Virus record (IMG/VR): IMGVR_UViG_3300047462_000595
Location: 1 to 35,223 of that record
DNA length: 35,223 nucleotides
Source: a virus
Reading direction: 5' to 3' (one strand)
A program made the translations under genes and the position numbers. Every line of letters starts with the position of its first letter. Positions within the stretch are counted from its first letter, which is position 1. The notes beneath the pieces were generated by a model that was not told where the DNA came from, did not search any database, and saw only the letters and a list, made by a program, of their open reading frames with translations. Of this stretch, positions 7,690-35,096 are shown piece after piece.

Positions 7690-7728
7690 TCTCTTGCAAA
7701 AGCGGCCGCCGGTGACACATTGAGGCGT

Positions 7729-7842
7729 TCGGATGATCCGCGAATCTGTGGATTTAATTTGCGGATCATCGGGGGCGGCCATGGTGGCCCCGGCCGTTGG
7801 GCGGGCGATGAGGAGTCAAATGACAACTCACGAAGACGATGA
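7729..7842 (+). pseudogene. Relic 3' end of a second toxin domain
   Basis: In the frame starting at 7729 the sequence reads SDDPRICGFNLRI, which aligns with the end of the intact toxin, NSSVPVIRNFVLKI, sharing S, P, I, F, L and I with several conservative changes. It then ends in a Gly/Arg/Trp-rich tail and GDEE, against GDED in the intact copy. As in the intact pair, the GAT-GAG codons overlap the ATGA start of the following immunity gene. No upstream part of a second toxin is present. The match is short, so this rests on both sequence and position. Confidence 0.6.
7732..7770. repeat. Inverted repeat at the cassette junction
   Basis: GATGATCCGC (7732-7741) and GCGGATCATC (7761-7770) are perfect 10-base inverted arms around a 19-base AT-rich loop. 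The hairpin lies between the intact immunity gene and the relic cassette, overlapping the toxin relic. There is no T-tract, so a terminator is unlikely. It could be chance or a recombination scar. Confidence 0.45.
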
Positions 7843-8232
7843 CCGGAGGGACGCTGAACAGGCCGAGAGGTTTGAGCTTCTTTATAATCGGGTTGAAGAG
7901 TTGCTGAAACGCTTTGACCGGCCAAACTTTCTGTCAGGCAGGCGCTACGGAGACTATTCCGTCAATGGCGATTACGCAGAATGTTCACGACTCGTCGTGT
8001 TCGTTACGAGTTTAAAAATGCTCATGCCGACGGTGGTCCATGCACTTCAACAGCTTCTGGGCGAATTTCCAGGATGGCAGATCGATCTAAGGTGGCGGTA
8101 TGGGATCATCTGAAAGATTGGCCGGAAATGAACGTATCCATTCGATCTCATGAAATTGCTGACGGTCTTCAGCGACAGTATCTTCCAAAGGAGTTTCATG
8201 ACGTGAAGTATGACGGAGCTCGAGTTGGGTGA
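7808..8232 (+). pseudogene. Second immunity-like gene, disrupted by a frameshift
   Basis: This is a paralogue of the gene at 7219. It shares RYGDYSVNGDY, LVVFVTSLKML, VVHALQQLLGEFPGWQIDL and, in another frame, KDWPEMNVSIRSHEIADGLQ. The frame changes at about 8090: one base appears missing after GATCTA, and translation would otherwise stop at 8111-8113. Start ATG 7808 corresponds to the start of the intact copy; ATG 7820 with AGGAG upstream is the alternative. The gene keeps the toxin-immunity overlap with the relic before it, so it looks like the immunity half of an older, displaced cassette. A sequencing error at one base cannot be excluded. Confidence 0.7.
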
Positions 8233-8388: not shown

Positions 8389-8691
8389 ATGGCCACTAAA
8401 GCCCAAAGAACTGCAACGAAGATGCATCGCCGCCGCGTCGCGGCGCGCGGTCTCATGCGCCTTGAGGTGCAGGCGTCAAAGCAGGATGCGGAATTGATCC
8501 GGGCGCTGGCCGCCGCTCTTCGAACTGGCTCAAACGTAGGCAAGACTGTTCGTTCGACGCTTGCCAGCGCGCTCTCCTCGCACGTGCCGCAAACGGCGTT
8601 TGATGTGTTCGGCTCCGGCCTTTCGGATGAGACTTTTGCCGGCGTGTTCGAGCAGCCTCGCGAAACGCGATGGCGCGATTTGAAGCTGTGA
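8389..8691 (+). CDS. Probable antitoxin of a VapBC-like pair
   Basis: This 100-residue protein has a basic N-terminus (KAQRTATKMHRRRVAARG) followed by LMRLEVQASKQDAELIRALA, which resembles the short strand and helices of small DNA-binding antitoxins. The C-terminus (RETRWRDLKL) would be the toxin-binding tail. Its stop codon overlaps the start of a clear PIN-domain toxin, the normal order for type II toxin-antitoxin pairs. I identify it mainly by context and do not assign an exact fold. Confidence 0.7.
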   Translation: MATKAQRTATKMHRRRVAARGLMRLEVQASKQDAELIRALAAALRTGSNVGKTVRSTLASALSSHVPQTAFDVFGSGLSDETFAGVFEQPRETRWRDLKL

Positions 8692-9101
8692 AGTTCCTGC
8701 TCGATACGAATATTATTTCCGAGATCCGCAAGCGTGACCGGGCCGATGCGCGCGTTGCGCGGTGGGCCGCCAAAATCCCGGCAAAAGATATCGGTACGAG
8801 CGTGTTTGTGCTTGCCGAAATCCGTCGCGGCATTGAGTTGAAGCGACGAAGCGATCGAGAACAGGCGGCAGCACTTGATCGATGGTTCTTGGAGATGCGT
8901 CATGCGCTCGATGACCGCGTCATTCCGGTCGATGAAGCTGTCGCAGATGCCTGGGCCCGCCTTAATCTGCCACATCCTTTGCCGTTTATTGACGGTCTGC
9001 TGGCCGCGACAGCGCAGGTCCATAGCTTGATCGTTGTCACGCGCAATACCCGCGACATGGCGCGGACCGGCGTGCCGCTGCTCGATCCATTTACGGCCTA
9101 A
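8688..9101 (+). CDS. vapC: VapC-type PIN-domain ribonuclease toxin
   Basis: The product is about 137 residues, normal for VapC. It has the PIN acidic residues: KFLLDTNIISEIRK (first Asp), VLAEIRRG (Glu), PFIDGLLAAT and VTRNTRDM. VapC toxins cut tRNA or rRNA in a metal-dependent way. I chose GTG 8688, which overlaps the antitoxin stop as GTGA and gives the usual short N-terminus; ATG 8670 adds six residues. The pair lies in the same accessory gap between portal and protease as the toxin cassettes, so it is a passenger, perhaps one that stabilises the locus. Confidence 0.9.
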   Translation: MKFLLDTNIISEIRKRDRADARVARWAAKIPAKDIGTSVFVLAEIRRGIELKRRSDREQAAALDRWFLEMRHALDDRVIPVDEAVADAWARLNLPHPLPFIDGLLAATAQVHSLIVVTRNTRDMARTGVPLLDPFTA

Positions 9102-17839: not shown

Positions 17840-20344
17840 ATGGGTTTCATCAACGGCGTCAACCTTTTGCCGTCGACCGGAGAGTTCACCTACGACACTA
17901 TTCCGTACCTTGGCCGGCGGACGACGGAGGCGGCGCTCACCTCGATCGACCGCTATGCCAATGGCGGGCCGCTGGCAGGAACAGGGTCCGTTACCGATTA
18001 CAGCATCGCGCTCGACAATCTTCAGGCGGAATATCCCGGCTGCACGACCGTTGCCGTCGTGGTTTCGTGGTTCGGCAGCTCGACGGATGTCACCGCCTGC
18101 AAGATTTATCCGTCGACGACCTACATCAACGGAACGTTTCAACAGGCTTCCGGTGCGTCCGACGCCTGGCGATGCTCGAGCCTGACGCAATCCTCCGCCG
18201 GATTGATTGCCATCCCGCAGAGCGGCGGCGCGTTCATCTACGGCGGCACGCCGTCAGATCAATCGCTGGTCCGCTGCATGCGCGATCTCAAGTCGCGCGG
18301 GTTTCGTGTCGTATTCTATCCGCTGATCCTGATGACCGCGGCTGGCGAGCCCTGGCGGGGCAGCATCACCTTCAACGGCACCGACATTTCGAGCGCGGCA
18401 ACGACGGCGATCGATGATTTTCTCGGCAGCGCCGCGGCCTCGCAGTTCACGCGCGATGCCACCAACCTGACCGTCGCCTATTCGGGATCGGCCACCGACT
18501 ACACCTACCGCCGCATGATCCTGCACTACGCCAACCTGTGCGTGGTCGCGGGCGGGATCGACCTGTTCCTCCTCGGCTCCGAGTTTCGCGGCCTGGAAAC
18601 GGTGCGCGGGCCGGCCTGGACCCAAGCCGGTACGACCGGCAGCGACGGCAACGTGACCTGGGACTATCCGTTTGTCGCGGGACTGATGCAGCTTGCCGAC
18701 GACGTGCGCAGTGTGTTCGACGGCGCCGGCTACACCAGGGACCTCGCCAATCTGCACAATCTGATCGCCTATTCGGCCGATTGGTCGGTGTGGATGGGCT
18801 ATCAGCATCCGGGCGAGAACGGCCAATGGCCGCACCTCGATCAGCTATACGGGCATGGCAACATCGATGTTGTCTCGTTCGACAATTATCTCCCGTTATC
18901 AGACTGGACGACCGGCGATGGCGGGCTCGACGCACACAATTGGCTGGCGCCGGCGCCCGGTGGGGCGTGGCCGCCGCAGCCGTCAACATTCAGCGGGCTC
19001 GGCCTGACCGGCCAGCCGACGCTCCACAGCCTCGATTATCTGAAGGCCAACATCGAAGGCGGCCAGTATTTCAGCTGGTTCTACAATGACAGCAGCAATC
19101 TCGGCGTCGGCCTCGATCCGAACGGGACCGATCTGCGGGTATCGCTGCCGCAGGGCGATCGCCTCACGCAATCGCGCAATCAGTATTATCCGAACCAGGA
19201 GTTGCTCGCCAACAAACAGCTGCGCTGGTGGTGGAACAATCCGCACCAGGCGATCTACGATAACGGCGACGGCACCGGCTGGTCGCCGCACGGGCCGTAC
19301 ACCGAGTGGGTGCCGCAGTCCAAATCCATCACGTTTGCGGAGTACGGCTTTCCGGCCTGCGACAAGGGCACCAACCAGCCGAATGTGTCCTACAGTCCGG
19401 CCTCGATCGAGAGTGCGACGCCGTACTGGTCGATCTGGGATCCGAGCGAAAGCGTCGCGGGGGATTACTGGCCGCGCCGCGACGACGAATTGCAGTTGCT
19501 CGCGCTGCAAGCCATCTATGAATACTGGGTGACCGACGGCAACAACCAGACCTCGGCCGCCGGCGTACCCATGATCCAGCCGGCCTTCATGTCGGTGTGG
19601 AACTGGGATGCGCGGCCGTTCCCGACCTTCCCGCAAATGACCAGCGTCTGGGGCGATACCGGCAACTGGCCGGTCGGCAACTGGCTCGATGGCAAGGGGC
19701 CGTTTCTGAGTCTGCCGGTGCCGAGCGATCCGCCCGTGCTCGGCCCGTATCCGAGTTTCCCGGCAGTGCCGACGCTGGGCTGGTCGGTCAAGCTGTCGCC
19801 GGTGTTTTCGACCGGCACCAGCCTGCATGTGTCCGGCCGCGAGGTTCGCGCCGCGAAATATGCGGCTCCGTTGTGGTCGATCGAGCTCAACTACGACCTC
19901 CTGCGCATGGTGTCGCCGAACACCGAGTTGCAGCAGATCGTCGGCTTCTTCGAGCAATGCGCGGGCGAAGCGGCTTCGTTCTATTTCGCGCCGCCGGCGC
20001 TTTCGCCGGTGCATGCTGGCGCACTCGGCACCGGCGACGCGACAACGACGACGTTTCCGATTCTGGTCTCGCTCGGCGCCGCGCTGATCACGCCGGCGAA
20101 TGTCGGAACGGCTTCGGCCGTTTATCTCAACGGTGTCGCGCAGTCGGGCGGTTTCACCATCGACACGACCGTGTTCGCGCCGTCAGTGAGTTTTGCCACG
20201 GCGCCGGCCGCCGGTGTCGCGGTGACCGCCGACTTCACCTGGACTCTGCTCTGTCGCTTCGACGACGACAGCGCCGACACGGAGGAATTCATGGCGGCGC
20301 TTTACGCCTTGCAATCGTTCAAGCTGCGCACGGTTCGCTCATGA
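17840..20344 (+). CDS. GTA TIM-barrel domain fused to a DUF2460 distal tail domain
   Basis: The 834-residue product joins two domains. Residues 1 to about 620 match the GTA TIM-barrel-like domain, with RGFRVVFYPLILMTAAGEPW, DLFLLGSEFRGLETVRGP (E248) and SITFAEYGFPACDKGTNQP (E501); the two Glu residues sit where a glycosidase would have its acids. Residues about 640-834 are a DUF2460 domain: LGWSVKLSPVFSTG, HVSGREVRAAKY and, at the end, ALQSFKLRTVRS. In the Rhodobacter GTA the TIM-barrel domain is at the start of gp15 and DUF2460 is a separate gp12, so this fusion is a different arrangement. It would sit at the tail tip and may loosen the cell surface; activity is inferred. Confidence 0.85.
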   Translation: MGFINGVNLLPSTGEFTYDTIPYLGRRTTEAALTSIDRYANGGPLAGTGSVTDYSIALDNLQAEYPGCTTVAVVVSWFGSSTDVTACKIYPSTTYINGTFQQASGASDAWRCSSLTQSSAGLIAIPQSGGAFIYGGTPSDQSLVRCMRDLKSRGFRVVFYPLILMTAAGEPWRGSITFNGTDISSAATTAIDDFLGSAAASQFTRDATNLTVAYSGSATDYTYRRMILHYANLCVVAGGIDLFLLGSEFRGLETVRGPAWTQAGTTGSDGNVTWDYPFVAGLMQLADDVRSVFDGAGYTRDLANLHNLIAYSADWSVWMGYQHPGENGQWPHLDQLYGHGNIDVVSFDNYLPLSDWTTGDGGLDAHNWLAPAPGGAWPPQPSTFSGLGLTGQPTLHSLDYLKANIEGGQYFSWFYNDSSNLGVGLDPNGTDLRVSLPQGDRLTQSRNQYYPNQELLANKQLRWWWNNPHQAIYDNGDGTGWSPHGPYTEWVPQSKSITFAEYGFPACDKGTNQPNVSYSPASIESATPYWSIWDPSESVAGDYWPRRDDELQLLALQAIYEYWVTDGNNQTSAAGVPMIQPAFMSVWNWDARPFPTFPQMTSVWGDTGNWPVGNWLDGKGPFLSLPVPSDPPVLGPYPSFPAVPTLGWSVKLSPVFSTGTSLHVSGREVRAAKYAAPLWSIELNYDLLRMVSPNTELQQIVGFFEQCAGEAASFYFAPPALSPVHAGALGTGDATTTTFPILVSLGAALITPANVGTASAVYLNGVAQSGGFTIDTTVFAPSVSFATAPAAGVAVTADFTWTLLCRFDDDSADTEEFMAALYALQSFKLRTVRS

Positions 20345-20961
20345 CCACACCGCCTTCGCTGCCGAGCCTCGCCGGCCTTGGCTGGTCGCGGCACAAGAAG
20401 CCGGGATTCTCCACGCGGGTCGCTTCGCACGTGTCGGGACGCGAAGTCCGCGTGGCGCTGATGAGCTATCCGCTTTACGAGTTCGAAGCCGTCTATGGCG
20501 GGCTGGCGTCGGCAGGAACCGCGGCGTTTGAGGGTCTCGGCGCGTCCAGCCTGCAAAGCCTGATGGGGTTTTTTCTCCAGCTTCAGGGCCAGTTTGGCAC
20601 ATTCCTTTATGCCGATCCGGACGACCATGTGGTTGCCGGCCAGGCGTTCGCGACCGGCGACGGCGCGACCACCTCGTTCACGATGATGCGCGCGCTCGGC
20701 GGCTTTCTCGAGCCGGTCGGCTGGGTCACCGCGATCAGCAATGTCTATCTCAACGGTACGCCGCAATCTTCGGGGGGCTACAGCCTGACCGCACCGAATA
20801 CGCTGGTGTTTACGGCGGCGCCGGGCGGCGGAGCGGTGGTCTCGGCCGATTTTTCCTACGCGTTCAACTGCCGCTTCCTCGACGACCAGATGGATTTCGA
20901 GGAATTCATGGCGAACCTCTGGAAGCTCGACAGCATGAAATTCCGCAGCGTGAAGCCGTGA
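20341..20961 (+). CDS. DUF2460 distal tail protein (second copy)
   Basis: The 206-residue product is a complete stand-alone DUF2460 protein, like GTA gp12. It has LGWSRHKKPGFSTRVASHVS, SGREVRVALMSYPLYEFEAV and a C-terminal FMANLWKLDSMKFRSVKP. It is clearly paralogous to the last 200 residues of the preceding protein: same start, same YLNG-containing middle, same end. ATGA overlap with the upstream stop indicates coupling. It would form the ring between tail tube and baseplate hub. Confidence 0.9.
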   Translation: MTTPPSLPSLAGLGWSRHKKPGFSTRVASHVSGREVRVALMSYPLYEFEAVYGGLASAGTAAFEGLGASSLQSLMGFFLQLQGQFGTFLYADPDDHVVAGQAFATGDGATTSFTMMRALGGFLEPVGWVTAISNVYLNGTPQSSGGYSLTAPNTLVFTAAPGGGAVVSADFSYAFNCRFLDDQMDFEEFMANLWKLDSMKFRSVKP

Positions 20962-20968: not shown

Positions 20969-21844
20969 ATGAAGCCCGCGACATCTGCGCTGATCACCTA
21001 CCTCAACAACGCCCGGGCCAACCCCGACGTGCCGTTGCTGATGGCGGACGCGTTCAGCTTCACGCTGCGTTCGGGACTCGTGCTCTGCTACACCAATGTC
21101 GATGTGACGTTCAGCTATAACGGCAGCACCTATCTCGGCAATTCGGTGCTGATCGACGGCCTGAAATACAAGGCCGCAGTCGGGCTTGAAGTCGACCAGC
21201 AGCAGATCACCATCACGGCGCGCGCGACCGACACGATTACCGGCGGCGCGCCGTTTCTCCAAGCACTGCGCGACGGCTCGTTCGACGGCACCGAGATCGT
21301 GCGCTACCGGGTGTTCTTCTCCGACCGGATCGGCGGCACTTCGATCGGATCGGCGCTGCTGTTCAAGGGCCGCCTCGGGACCATCGATGAAATCGGCCGT
21401 ACCAGCGCCAAACTCACGGTCAATTCCGACCTCGTGCTGCTCGACATCGACATGCCGCGCAACGTCTATCAGCCGACCTGCCTGCATACGCTTTACGATT
21501 CTGGCTGCACGCTGGTGAAGAATGCCTTTGGCACCAGTGGCGTCGCCGGTGCGGGATCGACCGCGTCGGTCGTCAACTGGTCGGGCGCCAGCGTGAACTT
21601 CCAGCAGGGCTCGATCACCTTTACCTCCGGCGTCAATGCCGGCGTCACCGCAACGGTCGGCTCCGTCGCCGCGGGCGCGTCACTGGCGCTTTTGTACCCG
21701 CTGGAAAGCGCGCCGGCACCAGGCGACACCTTCACCGTCTATTATGGCTGCGACCACACGCCCGGCACCTGCCAAACGAAGTTCGGCAACTTGGCCAATT
21801 TTCGGGGTTTTCCCTTCGTCCCGCCGCCGCAGATGGCGGTGTGA
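20969..21844 (+). CDS. Baseplate hub protein, GTA gp13-like, with four-cysteine cluster
   Basis: The 291-residue product matches GTA gp13 / DUF2163-type hub proteins: LITYLNNARANPDVPLLMAD at the start and CQTKFGNLANFRGFPFVPPP at the end. It has four cysteines in the expected pairs, C171 and C180 (PTCLHTLYDSGC) and C261 and C268 (YYGCDHTPGTC). In related phage and GTA hubs these bind an iron-sulfur cluster, as in lambda gpL. The protein would link the distal tail ring to the tip. It is followed by a minus-strand passenger gene. Confidence 0.9.
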   Translation: MKPATSALITYLNNARANPDVPLLMADAFSFTLRSGLVLCYTNVDVTFSYNGSTYLGNSVLIDGLKYKAAVGLEVDQQQITITARATDTITGGAPFLQALRDGSFDGTEIVRYRVFFSDRIGGTSIGSALLFKGRLGTIDEIGRTSAKLTVNSDLVLLDIDMPRNVYQPTCLHTLYDSGCTLVKNAFGTSGVAGAGSTASVVNWSGASVNFQQGSITFTSGVNAGVTATVGSVAAGASLALLYPLESAPAPGDTFTVYYGCDHTPGTCQTKFGNLANFRGFPFVPPPQMAV

Positions 21845-21847
21845 TGC

Positions 21848-22705
21848 TTACAGTGCGCCGATGGCGGCGATCACCGTTGGGTCGGTGAGAGCCATTGTCG
21901 GCACTGAAACGTAGAAATGGATCTCGGTCGGGTTGTGCGCCGCCGCGGCGCTTGCGAAGCGTTTGACTTCCGCCGCGGTGACACAACCGATTTCGCCCCC
22001 CACTGGAATAATCGGCAACAGGTTGCCCTTTTCATCCTTGCGATTGGCATAATCCGAATAGGCATTGATCAGGGCTTGTTCCGGTTTGCCCGTCGGATTT
22101 TTAGGATGACCGATCGGAGCAGCTTCCGGTTGGCATTTGTTGTGTTTGTCCCGGTATTGCCAATAGGTCTGGGGATACAGCACGGTGCACTTGTCGAGAA
22201 ACGACTGCCACGGAATGCCGCGATAGTTGGAAAAGCCGGTTTGGTGTGACGTCAGACCAAGAACGTAGGGCGTCTTACGCTTTTGGAATGCGTCGCTTAT
22301 GCCTGTCGCAAAAGTCTGGGCCTGTTTCGCACGATCGGTGATATTCGGATTATCCCAATCTTTCGGATAGGGCTGGTAATGATTGTCCTTGTCGCTGATG
22401 CCCTCATCCGACTCGATATCGAAGATGTATCCATCGATTCCCTTGCCGATGAGATTGATCACCGTTGCCATTTCGTTCGGCCAATAAGCGGCATCGACAG
22501 GTTTTGCGGCCGGGTCGGCAAACAAATGCGGCCATCGCCACCCATAAACTTTCAGCCCCATCTGCTTTTGAAACTGCGGCAGCATTCCTTCCAGCGAAGC
22601 AGCAGTCGTGCGGACGCAGATGGCTTTGGCGCCGCTATCCTTGATCTGCTGAATGACCCGTGCCGGATCGGAGTCCAGATCCTCAATCCATAATGCCTTA
22701 AGCAT
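21848..22705 (-). CDS. Putative TIM-barrel glycosidase-like passenger protein
   Basis: The 285-residue protein runs against the tail genes and ends 3 bases from the hub gene stop. It has successive strand-like segments expected of a TIM barrel: GAKAICVRTT, LKVYGWRWPHLF, GYIFDIESDEG, PYVLGLTSH, CTVLYPQTYWQ, LLPIIPVGGEIG and EIHFYVSVPTM. Asp-x-Glu in GYIFDIESD is placed like the acids of GH25-type or Rv2525c-like barrels. There is no signal peptide. GC content looks lower than its neighbours, and GGGGGGAC precedes ATG 22705. I do not know its exact family. It looks like a recently gained moron gene. Confidence 0.65.
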   Translation of the reverse strand: MLKALWIEDLDSDPARVIQQIKDSGAKAICVRTTAASLEGMLPQFQKQMGLKVYGWRWPHLFADPAAKPVDAAYWPNEMATVINLIGKGIDGYIFDIESDEGISDKDNHYQPYPKDWDNPNITDRAKQAQTFATGISDAFQKRKTPYVLGLTSHQTGFSNYRGIPWQSFLDKCTVLYPQTYWQYRDKHNKCQPEAAPIGHPKNPTGKPEQALINAYSDYANRKDEKGNLLPIIPVGGEIGCVTAAEVKRFASAAAAHNPTEIHFYVSVPTMALTDPTVIAAIGAL

Positions 22706-22733
22706 GTCGTCCCCCCGCGTCTGCAGCTTGGCG

Positions 22734-22763
22734 ATTAAACAACGCTTCCGTTGAATTCAGCAA
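22734..22763 (-). promoter_or_regulatory. Promoter candidate for the TIM-barrel passenger gene
   Basis: On the minus strand TTGCTG (22758-22763) and TTTAAT (22734-22739) are 18 bases apart, about 30 bases upstream of the gene's ATG. The -10 matches the consensus in 5 of 6 positions; the -35 is weak. A private promoter is expected for a gene opposed to its surroundings. Confidence 0.35.
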
Positions 22764-22791
22764 GAGCCAGGCCGATCGGCGCCGCGCCTCC

Positions 22792-23265
22792 ATGGTCCTG
22801 ACCAACATGACTCAAACCGAAAGCGTGCAGCGCGCGGCGGTCGTTGCCGCGGCGCGTGCCTGGATCGGCACGCCGTATCACCATTGCGCCGATATCAGGG
22901 GCTTGGGTGTCGATTGCGGCATGCTGCTGGTGCGGGTGTTTGTCGATTCCGGGCTGTGTGCGCCGTTCGATCCCCGCCCGTATCCGGCCGACTGGCATCT
23001 GCATCGCAGCGAGGAGCGCTATCTCGGGTTCGTATTCGATCGCGCCAGCGAGGTCGCCGCGCCGGGCGCGGGTGACGTCATGGTGCTGCGCTTCGGCCGC
23101 TGCCACGCGCATGGCGGCGTCGTGACCTGCGCCGATCCGCTTACGCTGGTCCACGCCTATCACCAGGCCGGGTGCGTACTCGAAGAACAAATCGGCCGCA
23201 GCGGCGTGCTGGCCGATCCCGAACGGCAGCCGCGCTTTTTCAGCTACTGGGCGAAGCGCGCATGA
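22792..23265 (+). CDS. NlpC/P60 family peptidase, GTA gp14-like
   Basis: The 157-residue product is a single NlpC/P60 domain: RAWIGTPYHHCADIRGLGVD with catalytic C42 just after (VDCGMLLVRV), then RCHAHGGVVTC with the catalytic His, and LVHAYHQAGCV. It is the tail-tip peptidase that cuts cell-wall peptides during DNA entry, encoded between the gp13- and gp15-like genes as in GTAs. ATG 22792 was taken; ATG 22807 is also possible. Its stop overlaps the next start (ATGA). Confidence 0.9.
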   Translation: MVLTNMTQTESVQRAAVVAAARAWIGTPYHHCADIRGLGVDCGMLLVRVFVDSGLCAPFDPRPYPADWHLHRSEERYLGFVFDRASEVAAPGAGDVMVLRFGRCHAHGGVVTCADPLTLVHAYHQAGCVLEEQIGRSGVLADPERQPRFFSYWAKRA

Positions 23266-25433
23266 GCGGCATTTTCGGCGGCGGCCAACAGCCGACCACG
23301 ACGCCCGACTATACCGGGCTGCAAATCCAGACGGCGGTCAACACGCTGCCGCTGCCGATCGTCTGGGGCTTGTCGAAGCTCGCGCCGAATGTGATCTGGT
23401 ACAACAACTTTCAGACCCATTACGGCAGCAGCGGCGGCGGCAAGGGCGGCCTGTTCGGCGGCGGTGGAGCGAACGAAACCACTTACAGCGCCTCCCTCAT
23501 CATGGCCCTGTGCGAAGGGCCGGTCGCGGGCATCAACCAGATCTGGAAGGGCCAATCGGTCTATACGCTCGGCGGTCTCGGGCTCACGTTATTCACCGGG
23601 ACGGTCCCGCAAAGCCCCTGGAATTATGTCACCTCGTCCTATCCGTCGCAGGCGCTGGGCTACGAAGGCACCGCCTATGTGTGCGCCGCGAACTACAGCC
23701 TCGGCGATACTGCAACGCTGGACAATCACAACTTCGAGGTGAAGGGGTTCCGCTACGGCAGCGGTTACGGCCAGCTTCAGTACAATTCGTCCGACGCTGT
23801 CGGCACCGGCAGCGGATACGGCTTTGTCGATGCCGATCCGGCGCTGATCATTTCGGACTTCCTGACCAATGCCCAATACGGCGTCGGCTTTCCCGGCGGC
23901 AGCATCGATGCCACGACGCTTTACAGCGCGGGCGGCGGCTCCGACGCCTCGTATCAGACCTATTGCCGCGCCATTGGCGTGGCGCTGAGCCCGGCGCTGA
24001 CCGATCAGGAGCAGGCCTCCAGCATTCTGGGGCGCTGGCTGCAATTGACCAACACGGCCGCAGTGTGGTCGGGCGGATTGCTGCGCTTTATTCCCTATGG
24101 CGACGCGGTTGTGACCGGCAACGGTGTCACGTTCACACCGGACGTGACGCCGATCTACAATATCGACGACGATGATTTCAAGATCGAGGACAACGAGGAC
24201 CCGCTTCAGGTCGCGCGCTCCGATCCTTACGAAGCCTACAACGTCTGGCGGCTCGAAATCGGCGAGCGCGATAACGCCTACAATCTGACAACGGTCGAAT
24301 CACGCGATCAGAATGCGATCGAGCTTTACGGCATGCGGATCGGACCGACCGTAACGGCGCACGAGATTTGCGATCAGAACGTCGCCGCGATTTCCGGCCA
24401 GCTGATGTTGCAGCGCGCGGTCTATATCCGCAACACCTACAAGTTCCGGCTGTCTTGGGAATACTGCCTGCTCGATCCGATGGACCTGGTCACGGTAACC
24501 GACGCTGTGCTGGGTCTTGCCAACGCGCCGATCCGGCTGACCGAAATCGAGGAAGACGAGAACGGATTCCTCACCGTAACCGCCGAGGAGTTTCCCTTAG
24601 GCGTAGCGAGCGCCACGCTCTACCCGACTCAGCCGGTCACCAACAATCCGATTGATCGCGGCGTTGCCGCCGATCCGATTAATCCCCCGATCATCTTCGA
24701 GCCACCGGCGACGCTGGTCGGCGCGACGCCGCAGGTCTGGATCGCCGCTTCAGGCGGTGCCTCGGGCGTTGCCGATCCGAACTGGGGCGGCTGCTTCGTG
24801 TGGCTGTCGCTCGACGGCAGTTCCTACAGTCAGATCGGCGCCATCAATGCGCCGTGCCGGCAGGGTGTGCTGACGTCGACGCTCGCAAGCTTCGGCGGAG
24901 CCAATCCCGACACCGGCGACACGCTTGCGGTGAATCTCGCCGAGAGCGGTGGCGTGCTGGCGAGCGGCTCGGCGGCCGATGCCGCGCTCGGCAACACGCT
25001 CTGCCTCGTCGATGCCGAGCTGGTCTCCTACCAGACCGCGACCCTGACCTCGGCCAGTGCGTATTCGCTGACGACGCTCTATCGCGGATTCTACGGAACA
25101 GCGGTGGTGTCGCATTCAGCCGGCGCGCCCTTTGCACGGCTCGACGATGCGGTCTTCCAGTACGACCTGCCGGCGCAATATGTCGGCAGCGTGCTTTATC
25201 TGAAATTCCAGTCGTTCAACGTGTTCGGCGGCGGCGTCGAGGCGCTGTCGGGGTGTGCGACCTACAGCTACGTGCCGACCTGGGCCGGGCAGGATCATCC
25301 GGTTGCGCGGGCGTGGCTGACCGGCGCCGCGATGGATCTGGGCGCCCTCACCGGAACGGTCGGGCCGCAGGACGACTTCGGCACGCCGTTGACCTTGACG
25401 ATCGAGCTCAGCGCCGATCTGGGCACAGCATAG
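23262..25433 (+). CDS. Central tail-tip protein, GTA gp15-like without the TIM-barrel part
   Basis: The 723-residue product starts MSGIFGGGQQPTTTPDYTGL, which is typical for these hub/host-specificity proteins, and continues with LPLPIVWGLSKLAPNVIWY, SASLIMALCEGPVAGINQIW and TYKFRLSWEYCLLDPMDLVT. It is about half the length of Rhodobacter GTA gp15. The missing TIM-barrel part is instead fused to the DUF2460 protein encoded at 17840. The C-terminus after about 480 has fibronectin-like and carbohydrate-binding-like segments. It is the probable tail-tip channel and adaptor. Confidence 0.85.
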   Translation: MSGIFGGGQQPTTTPDYTGLQIQTAVNTLPLPIVWGLSKLAPNVIWYNNFQTHYGSSGGGKGGLFGGGGANETTYSASLIMALCEGPVAGINQIWKGQSVYTLGGLGLTLFTGTVPQSPWNYVTSSYPSQALGYEGTAYVCAANYSLGDTATLDNHNFEVKGFRYGSGYGQLQYNSSDAVGTGSGYGFVDADPALIISDFLTNAQYGVGFPGGSIDATTLYSAGGGSDASYQTYCRAIGVALSPALTDQEQASSILGRWLQLTNTAAVWSGGLLRFIPYGDAVVTGNGVTFTPDVTPIYNIDDDDFKIEDNEDPLQVARSDPYEAYNVWRLEIGERDNAYNLTTVESRDQNAIELYGMRIGPTVTAHEICDQNVAAISGQLMLQRAVYIRNTYKFRLSWEYCLLDPMDLVTVTDAVLGLANAPIRLTEIEEDENGFLTVTAEEFPLGVASATLYPTQPVTNNPIDRGVAADPINPPIIFEPPATLVGATPQVWIAASGGASGVADPNWGGCFVWLSLDGSSYSQIGAINAPCRQGVLTSTLASFGGANPDTGDTLAVNLAESGGVLASGSAADAALGNTLCLVDAELVSYQTATLTSASAYSLTTLYRGFYGTAVVSHSAGAPFARLDDAVFQYDLPAQYVGSVLYLKFQSFNVFGGGVEALSGCATYSYVPTWAGQDHPVARAWLTGAAMDLGALTGTVGPQDDFGTPLTLTIELSADLGTA

Positions 25434-29467: not shown

Positions 29468-30181
29468 ATGCGCCTCGTCATCGTGTGCGGGATGCCCGAA
29501 GAGGCGGCAATCCTCGAGGCTGCGCTTCCGGGCATTCTTGTCCTGAGCGGCACCGCCAAAAACTATCTCGATGCGCTGGTGCCTGCCGACGCCACGCACA
29601 TCGCCTCGGTTGGCCTCGCCGGCGGTCTTTCACCTCAAATAAAAATCGCCGACGTCGATATCGGCGGTCTGTTGATTGACGGGTCCGGCGGCGCCTGGAT
29701 CCCGGACCCGGTCTGGTCGCGGGCGATCCTCAACGCCATCGGTGCTACGACCATCACGGGCGCCGGCGAAAACCTCGAGATGCCGGTCTGGGCGCAACGC
29801 GCCCGGATTTGCACCTGGTACTCGTCGGGGATCATGGACCAGGGCGACACCGCGGCACAGCGAGCCGCGCTGTTCGCCCAGACCGGCGCGTGGGCGATCG
29901 ACGACGAATCCTATTCGGTCGCTTCGCTCGCCGCGCGTCGCGGGATTCGTTTCGCCATCGTGCGCGCATGCAGCGACGATTTCCGCGAAACGCTGCCGCT
30001 TGCCGCGCGCGGCGCGATCATGAACGCCGACGGCAGCGCCAATATCCAATATCTGCTGCACGCGATCGCGGCCGAGCCCGCCTGCCAGACGCTCGACCTT
30101 GCAAAAATCGCGGCCGACTTCGACGCGTCGCTGGCGTCGTTGCAGGCCGCCGCACCGGCTTTGCTGCAATCCCTCAACTGA
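29468..30181 (+). CDS. Nucleoside phosphorylase superfamily protein (MTA/SAH nucleosidase-like)
   Basis: The 237-residue protein starts MRLVIVCGMPEEAAILEAAL, typical of MTA/SAH nucleosidase-type enzymes, and has ASVGLAGGLSPQIKIADVDI, then WAIDDESYSVASLAARRGIR and FAIVRACSDDFRETLPL. The last holds the likely catalytic Asp, and the DDES segment the substrate-ribose-binding Glu. The enzymes split nucleosides such as methylthioadenosine or adenosylhomocysteine. Its place inside a phage lysis block is unusual. It might recycle nucleosides, act on host signalling or defence nucleotides, or be a passenger gene of rhizobial origin (hopanoid-related phosphorylases are similar). The substrate cannot be told. 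Confidence 0.75.
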   Translation: MRLVIVCGMPEEAAILEAALPGILVLSGTAKNYLDALVPADATHIASVGLAGGLSPQIKIADVDIGGLLIDGSGGAWIPDPVWSRAILNAIGATTITGAGENLEMPVWAQRARICTWYSSGIMDQGDTAAQRAALFAQTGAWAIDDESYSVASLAARRGIRFAIVRACSDDFRETLPLAARGAIMNADGSANIQYLLHAIAAEPACQTLDLAKIAADFDASLASLQAAAPALLQSLN

Positions 30182-30193
30182 TGGAGACGTTAA

Positions 30194-30541
30194 ATGCGAA
30201 ACATCATGCGTGCGACCGCGCTCGCCGGCTCGGTCGCGCTCGGAGCCTGCGCGACGACCGGGTCGGGCGGTCTTACCATTGCGGACGTGCAGGGCGCCGC
30301 GGTAGCGGCGTGCTCCTACCTGCCAACCGCGGCCAGCGTCGCCTCGCTGCTCAATGCCAACGGCACGATTACGACCGCAGAGGCGATCGCCGCGATCATC
30401 TGTGCCGCGGTGACCTCGTCGCAGAGCGCGAAACTGAAGGCGGCGCCGGGTCCCGTCACCGTGAAGGTCGTGATCAACGGCAAGCCGGTGACCGTGACCG
30501 GCTCGTTCGTCGCCGCGCTCAACGGAACGCGGGCGCGCTAG
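30194..30541 (+). CDS. Small lipoprotein of the lysis block
   Basis: The 115-residue protein has a lipoprotein signal (MRNIMRATALAGSVALGAC) with lipobox LGAC and Cys 19, then an Ala-rich helix region with two further Cys (AACSYLPTAASVASLLNANG, IAAIICAAV) and a KVVINGKPVTVTGSFVAAL tail. It could be an outer-membrane spanin-like lysis protein or an anchored immunity factor; size and place permit either. No family is recognised. Confidence 0.6.
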   Translation: MRNIMRATALAGSVALGACATTGSGGLTIADVQGAAVAACSYLPTAASVASLLNANGTITTAEAIAAIICAAVTSSQSAKLKAAPGPVTVKVVINGKPVTVTGSFVAALNGTRAR

Positions 30542-30544
30542 GCC

Positions 30545-31303
30545 GTGGGTTTCAAGCTCGGCAAGAAGCCGGCGCGCCGTTGGCAGGCGCCCGGCAACAG
30601 CTTCCGGTTCGCGACCTACGCGGAGCCGGGCGCGCTGCCGCCGCTGCCCGCGGTGTTCGGACACGAGGCCCTGGTCGCATCGTGGCCGATGTTGGCGAAC
30701 GACCGTTATGGCGATTGTGTCTGGGCCGGCGCGGCGCATGAAACCTTGCTGCTGACCGGCGAAGCGGGACAGCAGGCGACCTTCACCGACGCCAATGTGC
30801 TGTCGGATTATGCGGCAGTAACCGGCTTTCGCCCCGAAGATCCGGCGACGGATCAGGGCACCGACATGCAGGCGGCGGCGCGCTATCGGCGCCAAACCGG
30901 CATCATCGACGCCGCCGGCCGGCGTCATCTGGTCGCCGCCTATCTGGCGCTCGAACCGGGCAGACTCTCCGACGTCCTGCTGGCGGCATATCTGTTTGTG
31001 GCCGGCGTCGGTCTGCAATTGCCGGCATCCGCGCTCGATCAGGCCGCGAACGGCGAGATGTGGGACGTGGTTGCGAACTCGCCGACCGAGGGCGGCCATT
31101 ATGTGCCGCTGCTCGGCCGCCGCAGCGACGGCCTCCTGGTCTTTGTCAGTTGGGGCGCAATTCAGCTCGCCACTGAACGCTTCGTGCAGACCTATTGCGA
31201 CGAGGCCGTCGCGTATCTTTCGGGCGAAGATCTCGTGCAGGGCCGATCGCCGGACGGATTCGATTTCGCCACGCTGACCGCCGATCTGGCGCGGCTGACA
31301 TGA
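30545..31303 (+). CDS. Papain-like-fold hypothetical protein
   Basis: GTG 30545 starts a 252-residue protein. It contains WPMLANDRYGDCVWAGAAHE, a GDC-x(6)-H arrangement as in papain-like or C39-like cysteine peptidases, and later NSPTEGGHYVPLLGRRSDGL with a possible catalytic His and VFVSWGAIQLATERFV with an Asn-less third strand. So the fold is probable but catalysis is uncertain. I recall related proteins in rhizobial phages and plasmids with no known function. There is no signal peptide. It lies 4 bases after the lipoprotein gene. Confidence 0.6.
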   Translation: MGFKLGKKPARRWQAPGNSFRFATYAEPGALPPLPAVFGHEALVASWPMLANDRYGDCVWAGAAHETLLLTGEAGQQATFTDANVLSDYAAVTGFRPEDPATDQGTDMQAAARYRRQTGIIDAAGRRHLVAAYLALEPGRLSDVLLAAYLFVAGVGLQLPASALDQAANGEMWDVVANSPTEGGHYVPLLGRRSDGLLVFVSWGAIQLATERFVQTYCDEAVAYLSGEDLVQGRSPDGFDFATLTADLARLT

Positions 31304-31358
31304 AGGTCTCGGCATTCCGGCTGCAAGGCGTCCTGGTTCGCAACACCGACGGTGAGTG

Positions 31359-31688
31359 ATGGCAGGAAAACTCGACGAAATCAGCGAGGCGATCGGACGG
31401 CTCCGTGCGAGTGTGGCCGACATCCAGCGCCGCATGGACCAGAGCCGCCGGCTCCAGGAGGAGCGCCACGCCGACAACACCGCCGCGTTGCGCGATCTGG
31501 CCTTGAAACTCGACCAGCACGCCGCCTCGGTGGAGATGATCAGACCGACCGTGGCGGCGCTGGAACTGTCGCGATCGAAGCTGACGGCGTGGGCGTCGCT
31601 TGGCTTTGCGGCCGTCGTGCTCCTCGGATGGGTCGTGGAGGCTGCCGTCAAGTGGATCGCCGGCCTGCTGTTTTCCCACCTGCAATGA
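31359..31688 (+). CDS. DUF1515-like coiled-coil membrane protein
   Basis: The 109-residue protein has an N-terminal coiled coil (KLDEISEAIGRLRASVADIQ, then MDQSRRLQEERHADNTAALR) and a C-terminal membrane helix (LGFAAVVLLGWVVEAAVKWI). This is the layout of the small rhizobial DUF1515 family, often seen beside phage lysis genes. It may be an i-spanin-like or holin-regulating protein. ATG 31359 was taken; GTG 31356 is in frame. Confidence 0.7.
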   Translation: MAGKLDEISEAIGRLRASVADIQRRMDQSRRLQEERHADNTAALRDLALKLDQHAASVEMIRPTVAALELSRSKLTAWASLGFAAVVLLGWVVEAAVKWIAGLLFSHLQ

Positions 31689-31698
31689 GGCGCCTTAA

Positions 31699-31740
31699 GG
31701 CGATCGGTCGAATTTTATCGAACCGCGCAAGCCGATCGCC
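31699..31740. terminator. Nested inverted repeat at the end of the phage block
   Basis: GGCGATCGG (31699-31707) pairs perfectly with CCGATCGCC (31732-31740). Inside it TCGA (31708-31711) pairs with TCGA (31718-31721). The structure starts 11 bases after the last phage-block stop codon and precedes the diguanylate cyclase gene, so it could end the phage transcript. There is no strong T-tract. Confidence 0.45.
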
Positions 31741-31795
31741 AGCATTGGCTGGGTAGAACTGCGTCATCCGTTCCCGAACGGGTGGGGAACCTGCG

Positions 31796-33043
31796 GTGCC
31801 GATCTTCGCCAGCTCGAATTTCGTGGTCGATCTGCCGACGCTGTGCGCGGTGACGGTGTTCATCACCCTCACCGGCGGGCTGCTGCTGCTGTTCGCATGG
31901 CTGCAAAACCGCAGCGAGCCGGCATTGGCGTTGTGGGGCCTGGGGTACCTGATCGGCTCCGCCGGCGCGGCGCTCCTGGCGCTGGCCGCGGCGATCCCGC
32001 ACGTGTGGTCGGTGGGCGTCGGCAACGCCCTGATCTGTGCCGCCTATGGCGTGCTGTGGGGCGGCGCGCGCGCTTTCGAGGGCCGACGGATTTCTGTTTC
32101 CCTGATTGCTGCCGGAGCGGTCGCATGGATGGCCGCTTACCAGTTCAATTTCGTGCCGTCGGTTCGCGGGCATGTCATTGTGGTGTCGGCAATCGTCTCG
32201 GCCTATGCGCTGCTTGCCGCGAGCGAGGTCTGGTACGCGCGCGACCGCGAATTGATTTCACGCTGGCCGACGCTGGCGTTGCTGATCATGCATTCGGGGT
32301 TCCTGCTGGCGCGGATTCCGATCGCAAGCGCGCTGACGCTCGCGCTGGCCGACGGCGAGGCGCACCGCACCGGCTATTTCATCATGGCGTTCGAGGCGCT
32401 GTTTGCCGCCTACGGTCTTGCGTTCCTGCGCATGAGCATGGCGAAGGAGCGCGTGGAGCTCGAGCAGCGCAAGGCCTCACTCACGGATTCGCTCACGGGC
32501 ATCGGCAATCGTCGCGCGTTCTTCGATCTCGGTGGCCAGTTGCTGGACTACGCTCTCACCGATCGCCGCCCGGCCGCGCTGCTGCTGTTCGATCTCGACC
32601 GCTTCAAGGAGGTCAACGACACCGCCGGACATCAGGCCGGAGATTGCGTGCTGAAGAGCTTTTCCGATCTGGTTGCGGCGGCGCTGCGCCCCACCGATTT
32701 GTTCGCGCGCCTCGGCGGCGAGGAGTTTGCCTGCCTGCTGACCGACGCATCGATGGCGCAGGCGCTGCAAGTCGCGGAGCGGGTGCGGCGCGAGTTCGAG
32801 GCGATGCGGTTCCCCGAGTTCCCGGCTCAGGCCACCGTGAGCATCGGCGTCGCGATGGCAAGCGATACCGGGCGAACCCTCTCGGCTCTGTTGGCAAGGG
32901 CCGACCGGGCGCTCTATCGCGCCAAGGCGGAAGGACGCAACCGCGTCGCGCCGGCGCCGCTGGTTCTCGTTGATGCCGGAAGCGAGGGGTCACGCGCACC
33001 CGCGGATGTCATCCGTCCGGCAGCAGTCGCTGCACCGATCTGA
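31796..33043 (+). CDS. Membrane diguanylate cyclase (GGDEF domain)
   Basis: GTG 31796 has GGGGA seven bases upstream. The 415-residue product has about six membrane helices in residues 10-215 (for example LCAVTVFITLTGGLLLLFAW) and a GGDEF domain at about 230-385. The active motif GGEEF is at residues 307-311, with the inhibitory site RxxD (R298-D301) five residues before it. DSLTGIGNRRAFFDL and LLFDLDRFKEVNDTAGHQAG are intact. It should make cyclic di-GMP from GTP under product inhibition. It is probably a host gene at the right edge of the phage locus. Confidence 0.92.
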   Translation: MPIFASSNFVVDLPTLCAVTVFITLTGGLLLLFAWLQNRSEPALALWGLGYLIGSAGAALLALAAAIPHVWSVGVGNALICAAYGVLWGGARAFEGRRISVSLIAAGAVAWMAAYQFNFVPSVRGHVIVVSAIVSAYALLAASEVWYARDRELISRWPTLALLIMHSGFLLARIPIASALTLALADGEAHRTGYFIMAFEALFAAYGLAFLRMSMAKERVELEQRKASLTDSLTGIGNRRAFFDLGGQLLDYALTDRRPAALLLFDLDRFKEVNDTAGHQAGDCVLKSFSDLVAAALRPTDLFARLGGEEFACLLTDASMAQALQVAERVRREFEAMRFPEFPAQATVSIGVAMASDTGRTLSALLARADRALYRAKAEGRNRVAPAPLVLVDAGSEGSRAPADVIRPAAVAAPI

Positions 33044-33088
33044 CAGCGCTTCCTGGGCTCTTTCCTAATAACGCGGGCAGATAAAGCG

Positions 33089-33110
33089 TGGGCCCGCCAC
33101 GGGCGGCCCA
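33089..33110. terminator. Hairpin after the diguanylate cyclase gene
   Basis: TGGGCCCGCC (33089-33098) pairs with GGCGGCCCA (33102-33110) with one bulge and a three-base loop. It lies 46 bases after the diguanylate cyclase stop and between two convergent genes, a typical place for a terminator. There is no T-tract, so strength is uncertain. Confidence 0.5.
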
Positions 33111-33167
33111 TCTCCCAAGTCGTACCCGGAATATCGAGGCCGGCGTGCCCGCGGGCTCCTCAGTCGA

Positions 33168-35096
33168 TCAAAGACTGACCGTCAGAAATGGGATCAATTC
33201 CAGCAGTATGGCCTGGATGTCCCGGCTCTCCTCGACGCGGAAGACAGCCAGCCGGCCGTGCGTCGCGGCGCGTGGGCAATGCTTCTCGACAACATGATAG
33301 TATTCCCGCTCGTAATCATCGAACAGAATGACAGTTCCAGGCCGCGCAGCAATCAACGAGAGCAGGAAGCAAGCCACCCGAAACCGGCCGTCGATAAGCA
33401 CCACGGTCGGCGACTCTCCGTTCTCCGCGAGCAACTGCCAGGGCGCCACCGCATAGCGCGGCCAGGTGTTGGCGTGGGCCAGGTCGGCGGGACGTCCCCA
33501 TCTCCGGATCGGACCGATATCGACCTCGGCAACCCGCAACCTCTGGCCTGTCTTCCCGAAACGACGATCGAAAGCCGTGCGGACGGCTCCAGCCCATTGC
33601 TGGTCCGAGTCGACCGAATAGACCGACCGGACCCCGAGTTCGCCCGCAAGGATTGTGCTGCCGCCGCAGCCGTACTCAAGATATATCTCGCAGCCATCAA
33701 GGTACTGCTGCAACGCCGCAGTCTCGTCGGGCGGCATAAATGGGCGCTCGGGCACCTCGTCATTGACAGGCTGATAGGATGTCGAGACGCACCACGCCAA
33801 AGTCTGCTGCGTCAGTGCGAAGCCGACCACACGGGTGCGGAAATCCCTGTACGAGCGATAAGCCCCAGCCATCCAGAACAGCGCATTGTGCCCGCCCACC
33901 GAGGGGCGGGTGAAGACAGGGCGGATCTGATCTTCCTGCGCATCCGGCGTGAGAGCCGAAAGCCGGGCCGATCGCGCGGCGACATCGACCTCACCAAAAA
34001 ATATTTGGTAGTGTTGCTTCCCGTCTGCGCTGCTGCGGAGCGTCAGATTGTTGACCGGGCAACGATTCGACGAAAAGGCGATTTGCAACGGATTGTTCGG
34101 GTTGACTGAAATCAAGCCGCTGTAATCGTCCTCGCCCGGATAGAGACAGCTTCCACCACAGGCGAGTTCGAACTCGGTCCATTGATGGCCGTCGAAACGG
34201 GCGTAGTGATAACGCAAGTCGTGACCACCGGCGCCGGATTTCGTTCGCGCGGCGCCGCCGCCCCGCTGAACCGTGAAGACGATGGTCACCGTCCCGTCCG
34301 CTGCGGCGGCGATGTCGGAAACCCATGCGACCGCATCGGCGCATCCATCGAACACTTTCGTCAGCGCCGGGTAACTATAGGCCGGCAGCGCATCGCCCTT
34401 CGGCAATGAACCAAGCCGCACTCCAAATGAGTCGAAGACGCCGCCGTCTTCGATGTAACCGTGATAGACCGAATTGTCGTACGCGCGCGGATGGTCTTCA
34501 ACGATTGCGAAGTGAATGCGGCCGCCAGCCTGGCAATAGACGATATAGGGACGACCCCCATCCAACCCTGTATGCTTTGGATCGTCGTCCGGACCGGGGC
34601 GGGCCCATTGGATCAATCGCCCACCATAACAAAAAGTGGAACCTTGGTCGGACGAGATGACATAGTTAGGGTTCCAGCCGACGCCGCGGTGAAAGTCGAG
34701 TACGACCGAGGAGCCGGGGAGTCGGAAAATGTTGCTGTACGTCGCGCCAGCCCCTGCGTGCACGCGCTTCTCGGCAGAGAGCTGTGTGCCATTGATGTCG
34801 TACGTTCGGTGATGAATGAATGCGTCTTCGCCGTGAGCTTGCCACATGGCGAGCACTTCATCGTCGCCTAAACAGCAAACTGCCGGCGCGTTATGATCGT
34901 CGGGCGGCGTGAAATTGCCGACTCGTCGGCCGCCAGTCGCTCCCGTTCGATGGTCATAAAATGAAAGCCGCAAGTCGCCTGCTGTATCGGCGCCGGCGGT
35001 TACACCAGCAACGCTTCCAAATACCGTAACCTCATTTATGGTTATGCCCCGCTCCCTGTGGAACCAGCAGTACGCGGCGTTCTCCTGCAAGGTCAC
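33168..35096 (-). CDS. BNR/sialidase-like domain fused to a SAM-methyltransferase-like domain
   Basis: The 642-residue product has an N-terminal beta-propeller-like region (about 1-430) resembling BNR_4 repeat proteins: DLRLSFYDHRTGATGGRRVG, YVISSDQGSTFCYGG and ITVNPNN-type turns. A C-terminal domain (about 460-642) has IYLEYGCGGSTILAGELGVR, SVDSDQQWAGAVRTAF and, later, TVVLIDGRFRVACFLLSLI and GTVILFDDYEREYYHVVEKH, a class I methyltransferase-like pattern. Such fusions suggest modification or recognition of surface glycans. GTG 35096 is only the first start codon left. The frame is open through 35113, where an IS3-type end begins, so the original N-terminus was probably cut off. It is not clearly part of the phage. 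Confidence 0.7.
   Translation of the reverse strand: MTLQENAAYCWFHRERGITINEVTVFGSVAGVTAGADTAGDLRLSFYDHRTGATGGRRVGNFTPPDDHNAPAVCCLGDDEVLAMWQAHGEDAFIHHRTYDINGTQLSAEKRVHAGAGATYSNIFRLPGSSVVLDFHRGVGWNPNYVISSDQGSTFCYGGRLIQWARPGPDDDPKHTGLDGGRPYIVYCQAGGRIHFAIVEDHPRAYDNSVYHGYIEDGGVFDSFGVRLGSLPKGDALPAYSYPALTKVFDGCADAVAWVSDIAAAADGTVTIVFTVQRGGGAARTKSGAGGHDLRYHYARFDGHQWTEFELACGGSCLYPGEDDYSGLISVNPNNPLQIAFSSNRCPVNNLTLRSSADGKQHYQIFFGEVDVAARSARLSALTPDAQEDQIRPVFTRPSVGGHNALFWMAGAYRSYRDFRTRVVGFALTQQTLAWCVSTSYQPVNDEVPERPFMPPDETAALQQYLDGCEIYLEYGCGGSTILAGELGVRSVYSVDSDQQWAGAVRTAFDRRFGKTGQRLRVAEVDIGPIRRWGRPADLAHANTWPRYAVAPWQLLAENGESPTVVLIDGRFRVACFLLSLIAARPGTVILFDDYEREYYHVVEKHCPRAATHGRLAVFRVEESRDIQAILLELIPFLTVSL

Follow-up and report, generated by a model that had tools for sequence, protein, structure and literature searches.

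A reverse-strand gene for a glycosidase-type barrel protein is probable cargo at a recurrent slot in phages with a gene transfer agent-like tail

INTRODUCTION

The window, by which we mean the whole stretch of DNA that was analyzed, is a linear virus record of 35,223 bases in which a run of forward-strand tail genes is interrupted by a single gene on the opposite strand. This raises the question of what the interrupting gene encodes, how it came to lie there, and whether it serves the lytic program of the phage or something else. An earlier note on this DNA had placed the flanking genes in a gene order considered among the most conserved in gene transfer agents (GTAs), and it had proposed that the reverse-strand gene is a passenger encoding a glycan-active TIM barrel. 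Our preferred reading, which we consider probable, is that it is a cargo gene (a moron) in a recurrent slot, encoding a cytosolic (beta/alpha)8 GH18-like enzyme that would be made in the lysogen and would either serve the host or exclude rivals.

RESULTS

The barrel gene and its insert

The features that frame the locus are as follows:

17840 to 20344, plus strand: N-terminal part (GTA_TIM) of the GTA "megatron" baseplate protein, fused to DUF2460 (PF13547, 9.3e-96; PF09343, 2.7e-30)
20969 to 21844, plus strand: left flank, baseplate hub protein, gp13-like (PF09931, 3.3e-31; PF09356, 1.7e-25; TIGR02218, 1.5e-29)
21845 to 22806, no strand: complete insert, 962 nt, GC 0.55, from the hub stop to the gp14 start common to relatives (homology breakpoints and GC)
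21848 to 22705, minus strand: barrel gene, protein P0001, 285 aa, (beta/alpha)8 glycosidase-type, unnamed family (ORF list, homologues and model)
22711 to 22716, minus strand: GGGGGG, a Shine-Dalgarno-like run 5 nt ahead of the barrel ATG (direct sequence reading)
22807 to 23265, plus strand: right flank, NlpC/P60-type peptidase, gp14-like (TIGR02219, E 1.4e-14)
23262 to 25433, plus strand: C-terminal part of the megatron protein (NF048004, 3.2e-43; phrog_1101, 2.4e-98)

The position, strand, and flanks that the earlier note gave for this gene were exact: positions 21848 to 22705 of the minus strand form a 285-aa open reading frame (ORF) with an ATG start, set between genes matching TIGR02218 and TIGR02219. 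The NlpC/P60-like protein scores 54.7 bits against TIGR02219, under the cutoff of 81.9, and the start of its gene at 22807 was assigned from the leader that relatives have in common. No ORF of 285 aa arose when the 962-nt insert was dinucleotide-shuffled 500 times; the longest ORF averaged 125 aa and peaked at 271 aa. This result and the existence of a conserved protein family rule out a spurious antisense ORF, and we conclude that the barrel gene is real.

The gene is also lower in GC than its surroundings, as had been claimed, with a GC content of 0.542 and a third-position value (GC3) of 0.63, compared with 0.60 to 0.67 and 0.69 to 0.87, respectively, in the 12 further window ORFs that were measured. 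Four related loci (L023, L025, L027, and L055) each lose homology to the window at 21844, the hub stop codon, and regain it at the start of the peptidase gene, at 22828, 22827, 22807, and 22806, respectively. Across 80 viral loci whose hub genes are related (8 of these loci end ahead of the peptidase gene), a tblastn search (E 1e-4) did not find the barrel, and this rules out a core gene of the phage group. Lower GC, the opposite strand, and the patchy, scattered distribution of relatives thus support acquisition of the gene, and the passenger status proposed for it finds backing here.

The suggestion that the gene has its own promoter candidate fared less well: a scan of positions 21600 to 23000 returned no sigma-70-type site (shuffle mean, 0.6), though the six-G Shine-Dalgarno-like run is present. 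Terminator-like sites are more numerous in the same stretch than in its shuffles (six, compared with 1.8 on average). Three of the six lie within the insert on the plus strand and, if real, could hamper the late operon. The stop codons of the barrel and hub genes lie 3 nt apart, and the sole minus-strand terminator-like site past the barrel in this stretch is weak and lies within the hub gene.

The window as a phage

The locus had been framed as part of a GTA. Since the record is viral and carries genes for a terminase, a portal, and a GH108 endolysin, we conclude instead that the window is that of a phage whose GTA-like baseplate protein is split. The megatron protein is divided between two ORFs that score 399.7 and 147.8 bits against NF048004, both under the cutoff of 800; its C-terminal part was scanned as ORF 23172-25433, in which the best NF048004 stretch covers model positions 811 to 1169. 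A second DUF2460-like gene (20341-20961) follows the GTA_TIM-DUF2460 ORF. Scans of a subset of the window's ORFs turned up no integrase.

Several other features of the window merit description. In the region of 4755-7229 and 7177-8113, the portal ORF has a low-GC tail (GC 0.51), which by itself gives a weak AHH-nuclease match (E 0.00092; 19.6 bits against a cutoff of 22.3) with a GHHW motif, and two small ORFs that are alike by eye come after it. Judged from their sequences, the tail and small ORFs resemble the toxin and immunity genes of a phage polymorphic toxin system, with the toxin fused to the portal; the MuF genes described in PMC5576092 lie just downstream of the portal gene instead. 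Between the portal and a protease-like gene lies a PIN-domain protein of VapC type (8670-9101; Pfam E 2.1e-16), preceded by a small ORF (8389-8691) that has no Pfam match. The right arm (29468-35096) carries a phosphorylase-superfamily gene (29468-30181), a GGDEF diguanylate-cyclase domain (31796-33043; E 1.6e-42), and, on the minus strand, a BNR_4 protein (33168-35096), and these are either accessory phage genes or host flank.

The hub-peptidase junction in related loci

We compared the junction across 88 loci, namely, the window, 80 viral loci (the best 80 of 90 relatives found by a hub gene search of viral contigs), and 7 stretches from host genomes, some of these loci being near-copies of each other. 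In the host family of G001, 176 of 391 genomes gave a hub-like match, yet identity reached 69 to 82% in just 8, two of them partial, and stretches from 7 of these 8 were retrieved for the gap comparison. The hub-peptidase gap was measurable in 79 of the 88 loci, the other 9 having no usable end, and it was at least 600 nt in 15 and at least 250 nt in 28. At the next two junctions downstream, gaps of at least 600 nt occurred in 1 of 74 loci (gp14-gp15) and 0 of 50 (gp15-fiber), and at two upstream junctions they occurred in 1 of 76 (A-B) and 6 of 46 (Z-A). The gp12-gp13 junction has such gaps in 11 of 80 loci, but several of them are in-frame gp12 extensions, and it was rejected as a second slot.

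By this comparison, the hub-peptidase junction is a recurrent cargo slot in this phage group and is not rigid. The junction is a small variable locus with two conserved flanks and high turnover, the features by which phage cargo hotspots are recognized. A gp13 tree of 74 rows (68 of them different) requires 11 state changes to account for the 14 rows that bear large cargo, at least 9 of the changes being forced by starred branches (quick method). Under shuffled labels the mean was 13.0 changes, and 35 of 500 shuffles needed no more than 11, so the tie between cargo and lineage is a loose one. Turnover is also evident between L024 and L025, which are 97.8% identical over 8.9 kb to the left and 98.2% identical over 2.2 kb to the right, and whose sole large difference within the compared stretch is a toxin-antitoxin pair, along with the opening codons of the peptidase gene. 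Judged by title and abstract opening, none of the papers listed on phage cargo described this junction.

In L047, L050, L064, and L067, the junction also has palindromic repeats, their arms 13 to 30 nt long, with weaker ones in L051 and L057, and short repeat elements too may land there. With the settings used, none were reported in L046, L102, L133, or the window, and we therefore do not claim a repeat-driven route of insertion. At the gp12-gp13 junction, L067 carries reverse-strand genes (4963-7901), two proteins of which were scanned and matched acyltransferase-3 (E 3e-22) and a methyltransferase (E 6.5e-8), and L064 has a like gene (7099-7776); on sequence grounds, these are possibly surface-modifying cargo. 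A third junction, ahead of the gene-A homologue, holds an antitoxin/PIN-type pair in L024 (4047-4723; PIN E 9.8e-15), and by eye L025 and L056 have a like pair.

Contents of the slot

Cargo with recognizable domains includes toxin-antitoxin and Toll/interleukin-1 receptor (TIR) types. In L024, Pfam identifies a Gp49-like toxin with an HTH_37 antitoxin, a pair for which "HigBA-type" is our own name; L026 (99.5% DNA identity to L024) has the pair with both ORFs intact, L045 (96.6%) has it as a single fused frame, and L050 has an HTH_37 partner. L027 encodes a protein matching TIR_2 and CAP12-PCTIR_TIR (PADLOC PDC-S35, 5.6e-40). The toxin-antitoxin, HTH_37, and TIR genes are all on the minus strand, as is the barrel gene. 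Candidate anti-phage cargo, as judged from domain matches, thus comprises one double-TIR protein with PADLOC matches and the toxin-antitoxin genes.

No function was assigned to the contents of nine other loci with gaps of at least 600 nt (L029, L036, L037, L043, L048, L049, L068, L073, and L102), from which one ORF each was scanned in L036, L049, and L102 and two in L043, the L037 protein being that of L036; several ORFs in these nine loci are on the plus strand. Farther afield, a HicA toxin occupies the junction in L159, a more distant phage; forward-strand genes fill about 2.2 kb of it in one Acinetobacter phage and 2.7 kb in another, an SGNH/GDSL hydrolase gene being among them; and the Brevundimonas phage Polewnik has no cargo there.

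A rare protein family

Against Pfam to an E of 1, P0001 gave only Peripla_BP_6 (E 0.014; 15.6 bits, under the cutoff of 31.7), and it had no PHROG, NCBIfam, or PADLOC match. Plasmid searches found relatives in two Rhizobium phaseoli records and one Nostoc record, and a genome profile scan confirmed 6 of 123 candidates, from a Bradyrhizobiaceae metagenome-assembled genome (MAG), Caulobacter, Rhizobium lusitanum, Pseudoduganella, a Rhizobiales bacterium, and an Acidobacteriota MAG. The Rhizobiales relative is incomplete and was kept out of the eight-member alignment. P0001 is about one-third identical to its relatives over most of its length, and 36 columns are invariant across the eight aligned members. 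Among the invariant residues are D91, D96, and E98, so that the Asp-x-Glu motif noticed earlier is D96-x-E98 and is identical in 8 of 8. The motif occupies the following codons:

22412 to 22435, minus strand: D91-G-Y-x-x-D96-x-E98, at the end of strand 4 (residues 92 to 96), presumed catalytic site

Further searches returned little. With the seed genome excluded, strong matches numbered 0 of 384 genomes in the class of G002, 0 of 198 in its family, 0 of 246 in the family of G003, 0 of 146 in the class of G006, and 0 of 390 in the family of G001, which gave four weak remote matches (E 5e-8 to 8e-7); the family of G004 gave 1 of 194, a 62-position piece (E 5e-17). For many of these genomes, the scans scored just a portion of the first-look candidates. 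Profile comparison with the family was applied to two of the four remote matches (E 1.1e-6 and 8.2e-8), both of which keep the D-x-E and PQxY motifs. Scans of viral contigs gave 1, 33, and 67 pattern matches with no relative confirmed, and a single-sequence scan of genome contigs confirmed 0 of 11 candidates. No barrel was found in 50,697 phage records (E 0.01) queried with P0001 and the proteins of L005 and L022, and two PDB sequence searches returned nothing meaningful (one match at E 1.3 in one, none in the other). Kinship to the window's own GTA_TIM ORF was rejected, as a comparison gave no match. As sampled by these searches, the family is rare, scattered, and unnamed, with members in Alphaproteobacteria, Pseudoduganella, Acidobacteriota, and a Nostoc plasmid.

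Some neighborhoods of the relatives hint at the cell wall. The Nostoc relative lies among genes with PG_binding_1, GHL10, M15, and SH3_3 domains, and one R. phaseoli relative is 1.9 kb away from a Phage_lysozyme/DUF2272/CHAP gene. In R. lusitanum, the two preceding genes match DUF5675 and GDSL lipase, at sub-cutoff scores only. By eye, the relatives in L004, L005, and L009, which come from Caulobacter (L005), the Acidobacteriota MAG, and the Bradyrhizobiaceae MAG, stand alone, with ordinary-looking gene neighbors and no cell-wall context. The Nostoc protein has about 70 additional N-terminal residues that look SH3-like by eye, and a Pfam scan gave no SH3 match for them. Because only some relatives are near cell-wall genes and the SH3 look has no profile support, the peptidoglycan lead is real but thin.

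Predicted fold and active site

AlphaFold2 predicts P0001 to be a barrel of eight beta/alpha units (mean pLDDT, 80.9; pTM, 0.82), in agreement with the barrel pattern that had been read from the sequence. The Caulobacter relative (L005) gives a firmer barrel (pLDDT, 92.1; pTM, 0.89), in which DSSP assigns seven strands of at least 3 residues. Among the PDB matches listed for P0001, the top Foldseek match is Cwp19 (E 2.7e-9), and in structural re-ranking of the matches listed, Cwp19 (Z 17.1; rmsd, 3.7; 243 aligned), GH164 (Z 16.5), and PgaB (Z 16.4; rmsd, 3.8; 245 aligned) are tied. For L005, the leaders among the matches listed are the GH18 chitinase 3co4 (Z 18.2; rmsd, 3.2; 221 aligned), the spore cortex enzyme SleL (4s3j; Z 17.7), and Cwp19 (Z 17.6), all within one Z unit. 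Glycosidases thus occupy the top rows of the re-ranking for both models, among the matches listed. The best viral structural match is an uncharacterized phage protein, A0A6J5L5X0 (E 1.7e-11; 17% identity).

TIM barrels are common, and others score well too: among the L005 Foldseek matches listed, a GH18 enzyme comes first with many non-glycosidase barrels such as pyruvate kinase, and methylenetetrahydrofolate reductase reaches Z 14.8 against the P0001 model. The fold alone therefore does not demonstrate glycosidase activity. Active sites of barrel enzymes lie at the C-terminal ends of the strands, and 20 of the 36 invariant columns fall within the 48 residues around these ends (hypergeometric, 8e-9), a clustering equaled by 3 of 284 circular shifts and not significant when strand residues alone are counted (P 0.19). 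The GH18 motif, DxxDxDxE, also lies at strand 4; D91, D96, and E98 are three of its four acids, and the place of the second acid is I, F, or Y in the aligned members. Endo H, among the L005 fold matches at Z 15.9, has listed mutants (D130N and E132A) with the same D-x-E spacing.

Sequence profiles did not assign the family. Glyco_hydro_18 gave no match for P0001 to an E of 1, or for six relatives and three remote homologues to an E of 5, by HMMER, whose filters discard most weak matches. The GH25 profile PF01183 matched neither P0001 nor six relatives, with the Nostoc relative at E 0.0048 (17.7 bits, under the cutoff of 27); the GHL10 profile PF02638 matched neither P0001 nor the relatives scanned, and P0001 had no Rv2525c-like Pfam match. 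A profile comparison of the family with the GHL10 neighbor in Nostoc (P0003) also gave no match (probability, 0.2%). GH25 and Rv2525c folds are absent among the matches listed for both models, which does not exclude either. The earlier suggestion of a glycan-active enzyme thus stands with respect to a glycosidase-type fold and a conserved D-x-E, but the nearest listed folds are GH18-type, Cwp19, PgaB, and GH164 rather than the proposed GH25 or Rv2525c. In sum, the modeled barrel resembles GH18- and Cwp19-type enzymes by fold; by sequence it does not qualify as GH18, GH25, or GHL10.

The first predicted strand of P0001 starts at residue 2, and there is no in-frame start codon upstream, so translation from this ATG excludes a classical signal peptide, and it cannot be taken for granted that the protein acts on the wall outside the cytoplasm.

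DISCUSSION

What the gene may do

We propose that a cargo gene was acquired horizontally into the hub-NlpC/P60 slot of phages with a GTA-like tail. Its product would be a single-domain cytosolic (beta/alpha)8 protein with a conserved pocket in which D96 and E98 form the presumed catalytic pair. GH18-like retaining chemistry seems the most likely, with E98 acting as the acid/base and D96 steadying the N-acetyl group of the substrate. Our best guess for that substrate is peptidoglycan or a related N-acetyl glycan with GlcNAc or MurNAc, a choice guided by the fold neighbors and by the two relatives close to cell-wall genes. Its orientation, opposite to that of the late operon, makes expression in the lysogen most likely, perhaps from a weak or unrecognized promoter. 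There it may serve the host or exclude rivals, as the TIR and toxin-antitoxin cargo may.

A narrower form of this proposal, which we regard as doubtful, is that the protein is a superinfection-exclusion or anti-phage effector, a cytosolic glycan enzyme that aborts or blocks infection, for instance by acting on a cytosolic precursor or by lysing the cell early once an incoming phage has breached the membrane. The double-TIR protein and the toxin-antitoxin pair that relatives carry in the slot, the HicA toxin in the more distant phage, and the impossibility of a signal peptide would all fit such a role, but P0001 has no PADLOC match, the insert has no partner gene, and by eye the bacterial relatives have no adjoining defense island. 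We have similar doubts about a role for P0001 in metabolism, as a TIM-barrel enzyme, or in binding, rather than as a glycosidase. The good scores of non-glycosidase barrels and the lack of a glycosidase Pfam match would be expected of such a protein; against it, glycosidases top the re-ranking of both models among the matches listed, and D-x-E at strand 4 suits N-acetyl-glycosidases.

Endolysins often lack signal peptides, and a peptidoglycan-cleaving barrel beside the GH108 endolysin and the NlpC/P60 peptidase might reach the wall through the holin at lysis. As an auxiliary lysis or entry enzyme, P0001 would share its activity with two fold neighbors, since Cwp19 cleaves peptidoglycan (PMC6016235) and SleL is, by title, a spore cortex-lytic enzyme. 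We consider this unlikely, given that the gene is on the reverse strand within the late operon, that tblastn did not find it in the 80 viral loci with a related hub gene, and that the window already has an endolysin. Quite unlikely, too, is an extension of our proposal in which the junction in GTA-tailed phages generally receives immunity genes that lysogens express, with the barrel as a new kind of effector, a cytosolic GH18-like N-acetyl-glycosidase that stops superinfecting phage, possibly through attack on a cytosolic glycan or, after such a phage has breached the membrane, on the cell wall. Finally, it is highly improbable that the reverse transcript rather than the protein matters, with barrel mRNA running antisense into the hub and silencing the hub of an infecting relative: the closeness of the two stop codons, the weak terminator-like site inside the hub, and a precedent in Salmonella prophage BTP1, where antisense RNA on other late genes excludes superinfection (PMC7067206), are consistent with it, but an RNA role leaves the one-third identity over most of the protein and the intact D-x-E unexplained.

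The locus offers a fixed, easily located spot for accessory-gene exchange in a phage group, and it draws attention to a protein family, as yet unnamed, whose pocket is strongly conserved. Since the spot is fixed and the genes swapped there include likely immunity and toxin-antitoxin genes, a survey of the junction across phages would be a quick way to new cargo.

Comparison with known systems

The family shares with GH18 (chitinases, endo-N-acetylglucosaminidases, and SleL) a (beta/alpha)8 barrel and a D...D-x-E at strand 4. It differs in having no Pfam match, in the one nonacidic place of the DxxDxDxE motif, in its strand-6 motif, PQxYW, and in sequence identities of 6 to 17% to the fold matches. 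The C-terminal domain of PgaB is likewise a barrel, at 13% identity; PgaB is an exported two-domain protein that acts on poly-GlcNAc. Cwp19 of Clostridioides difficile, a GHL10 lytic transglycosylase, is the top listed fold match of P0001, but identity is 13%, P0001 has no GHL10 Pfam match, and Cwp19 has a signal sequence and cell-wall-binding repeats (PMC6016235).

Compared with RcGTA-type gene transfer agents, the window has homologues of the hub, the NlpC/P60 protein, and the megatron C-terminal part in the same order; unlike them, it has a phage terminase, portal, and endolysin and a split megatron, each part of which falls below the NF048004 cutoff. The slot itself invites comparison with the hot spots of P2-like phages and P4-like satellites described in PMC9122126. 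Theirs lie at gpA/gpQ and ours at hub/peptidase in a GTA-like tail module, where only part of the cargo is recognizably, and putatively, of immunity type; in both, a small, high-turnover locus sits between two conserved genes.
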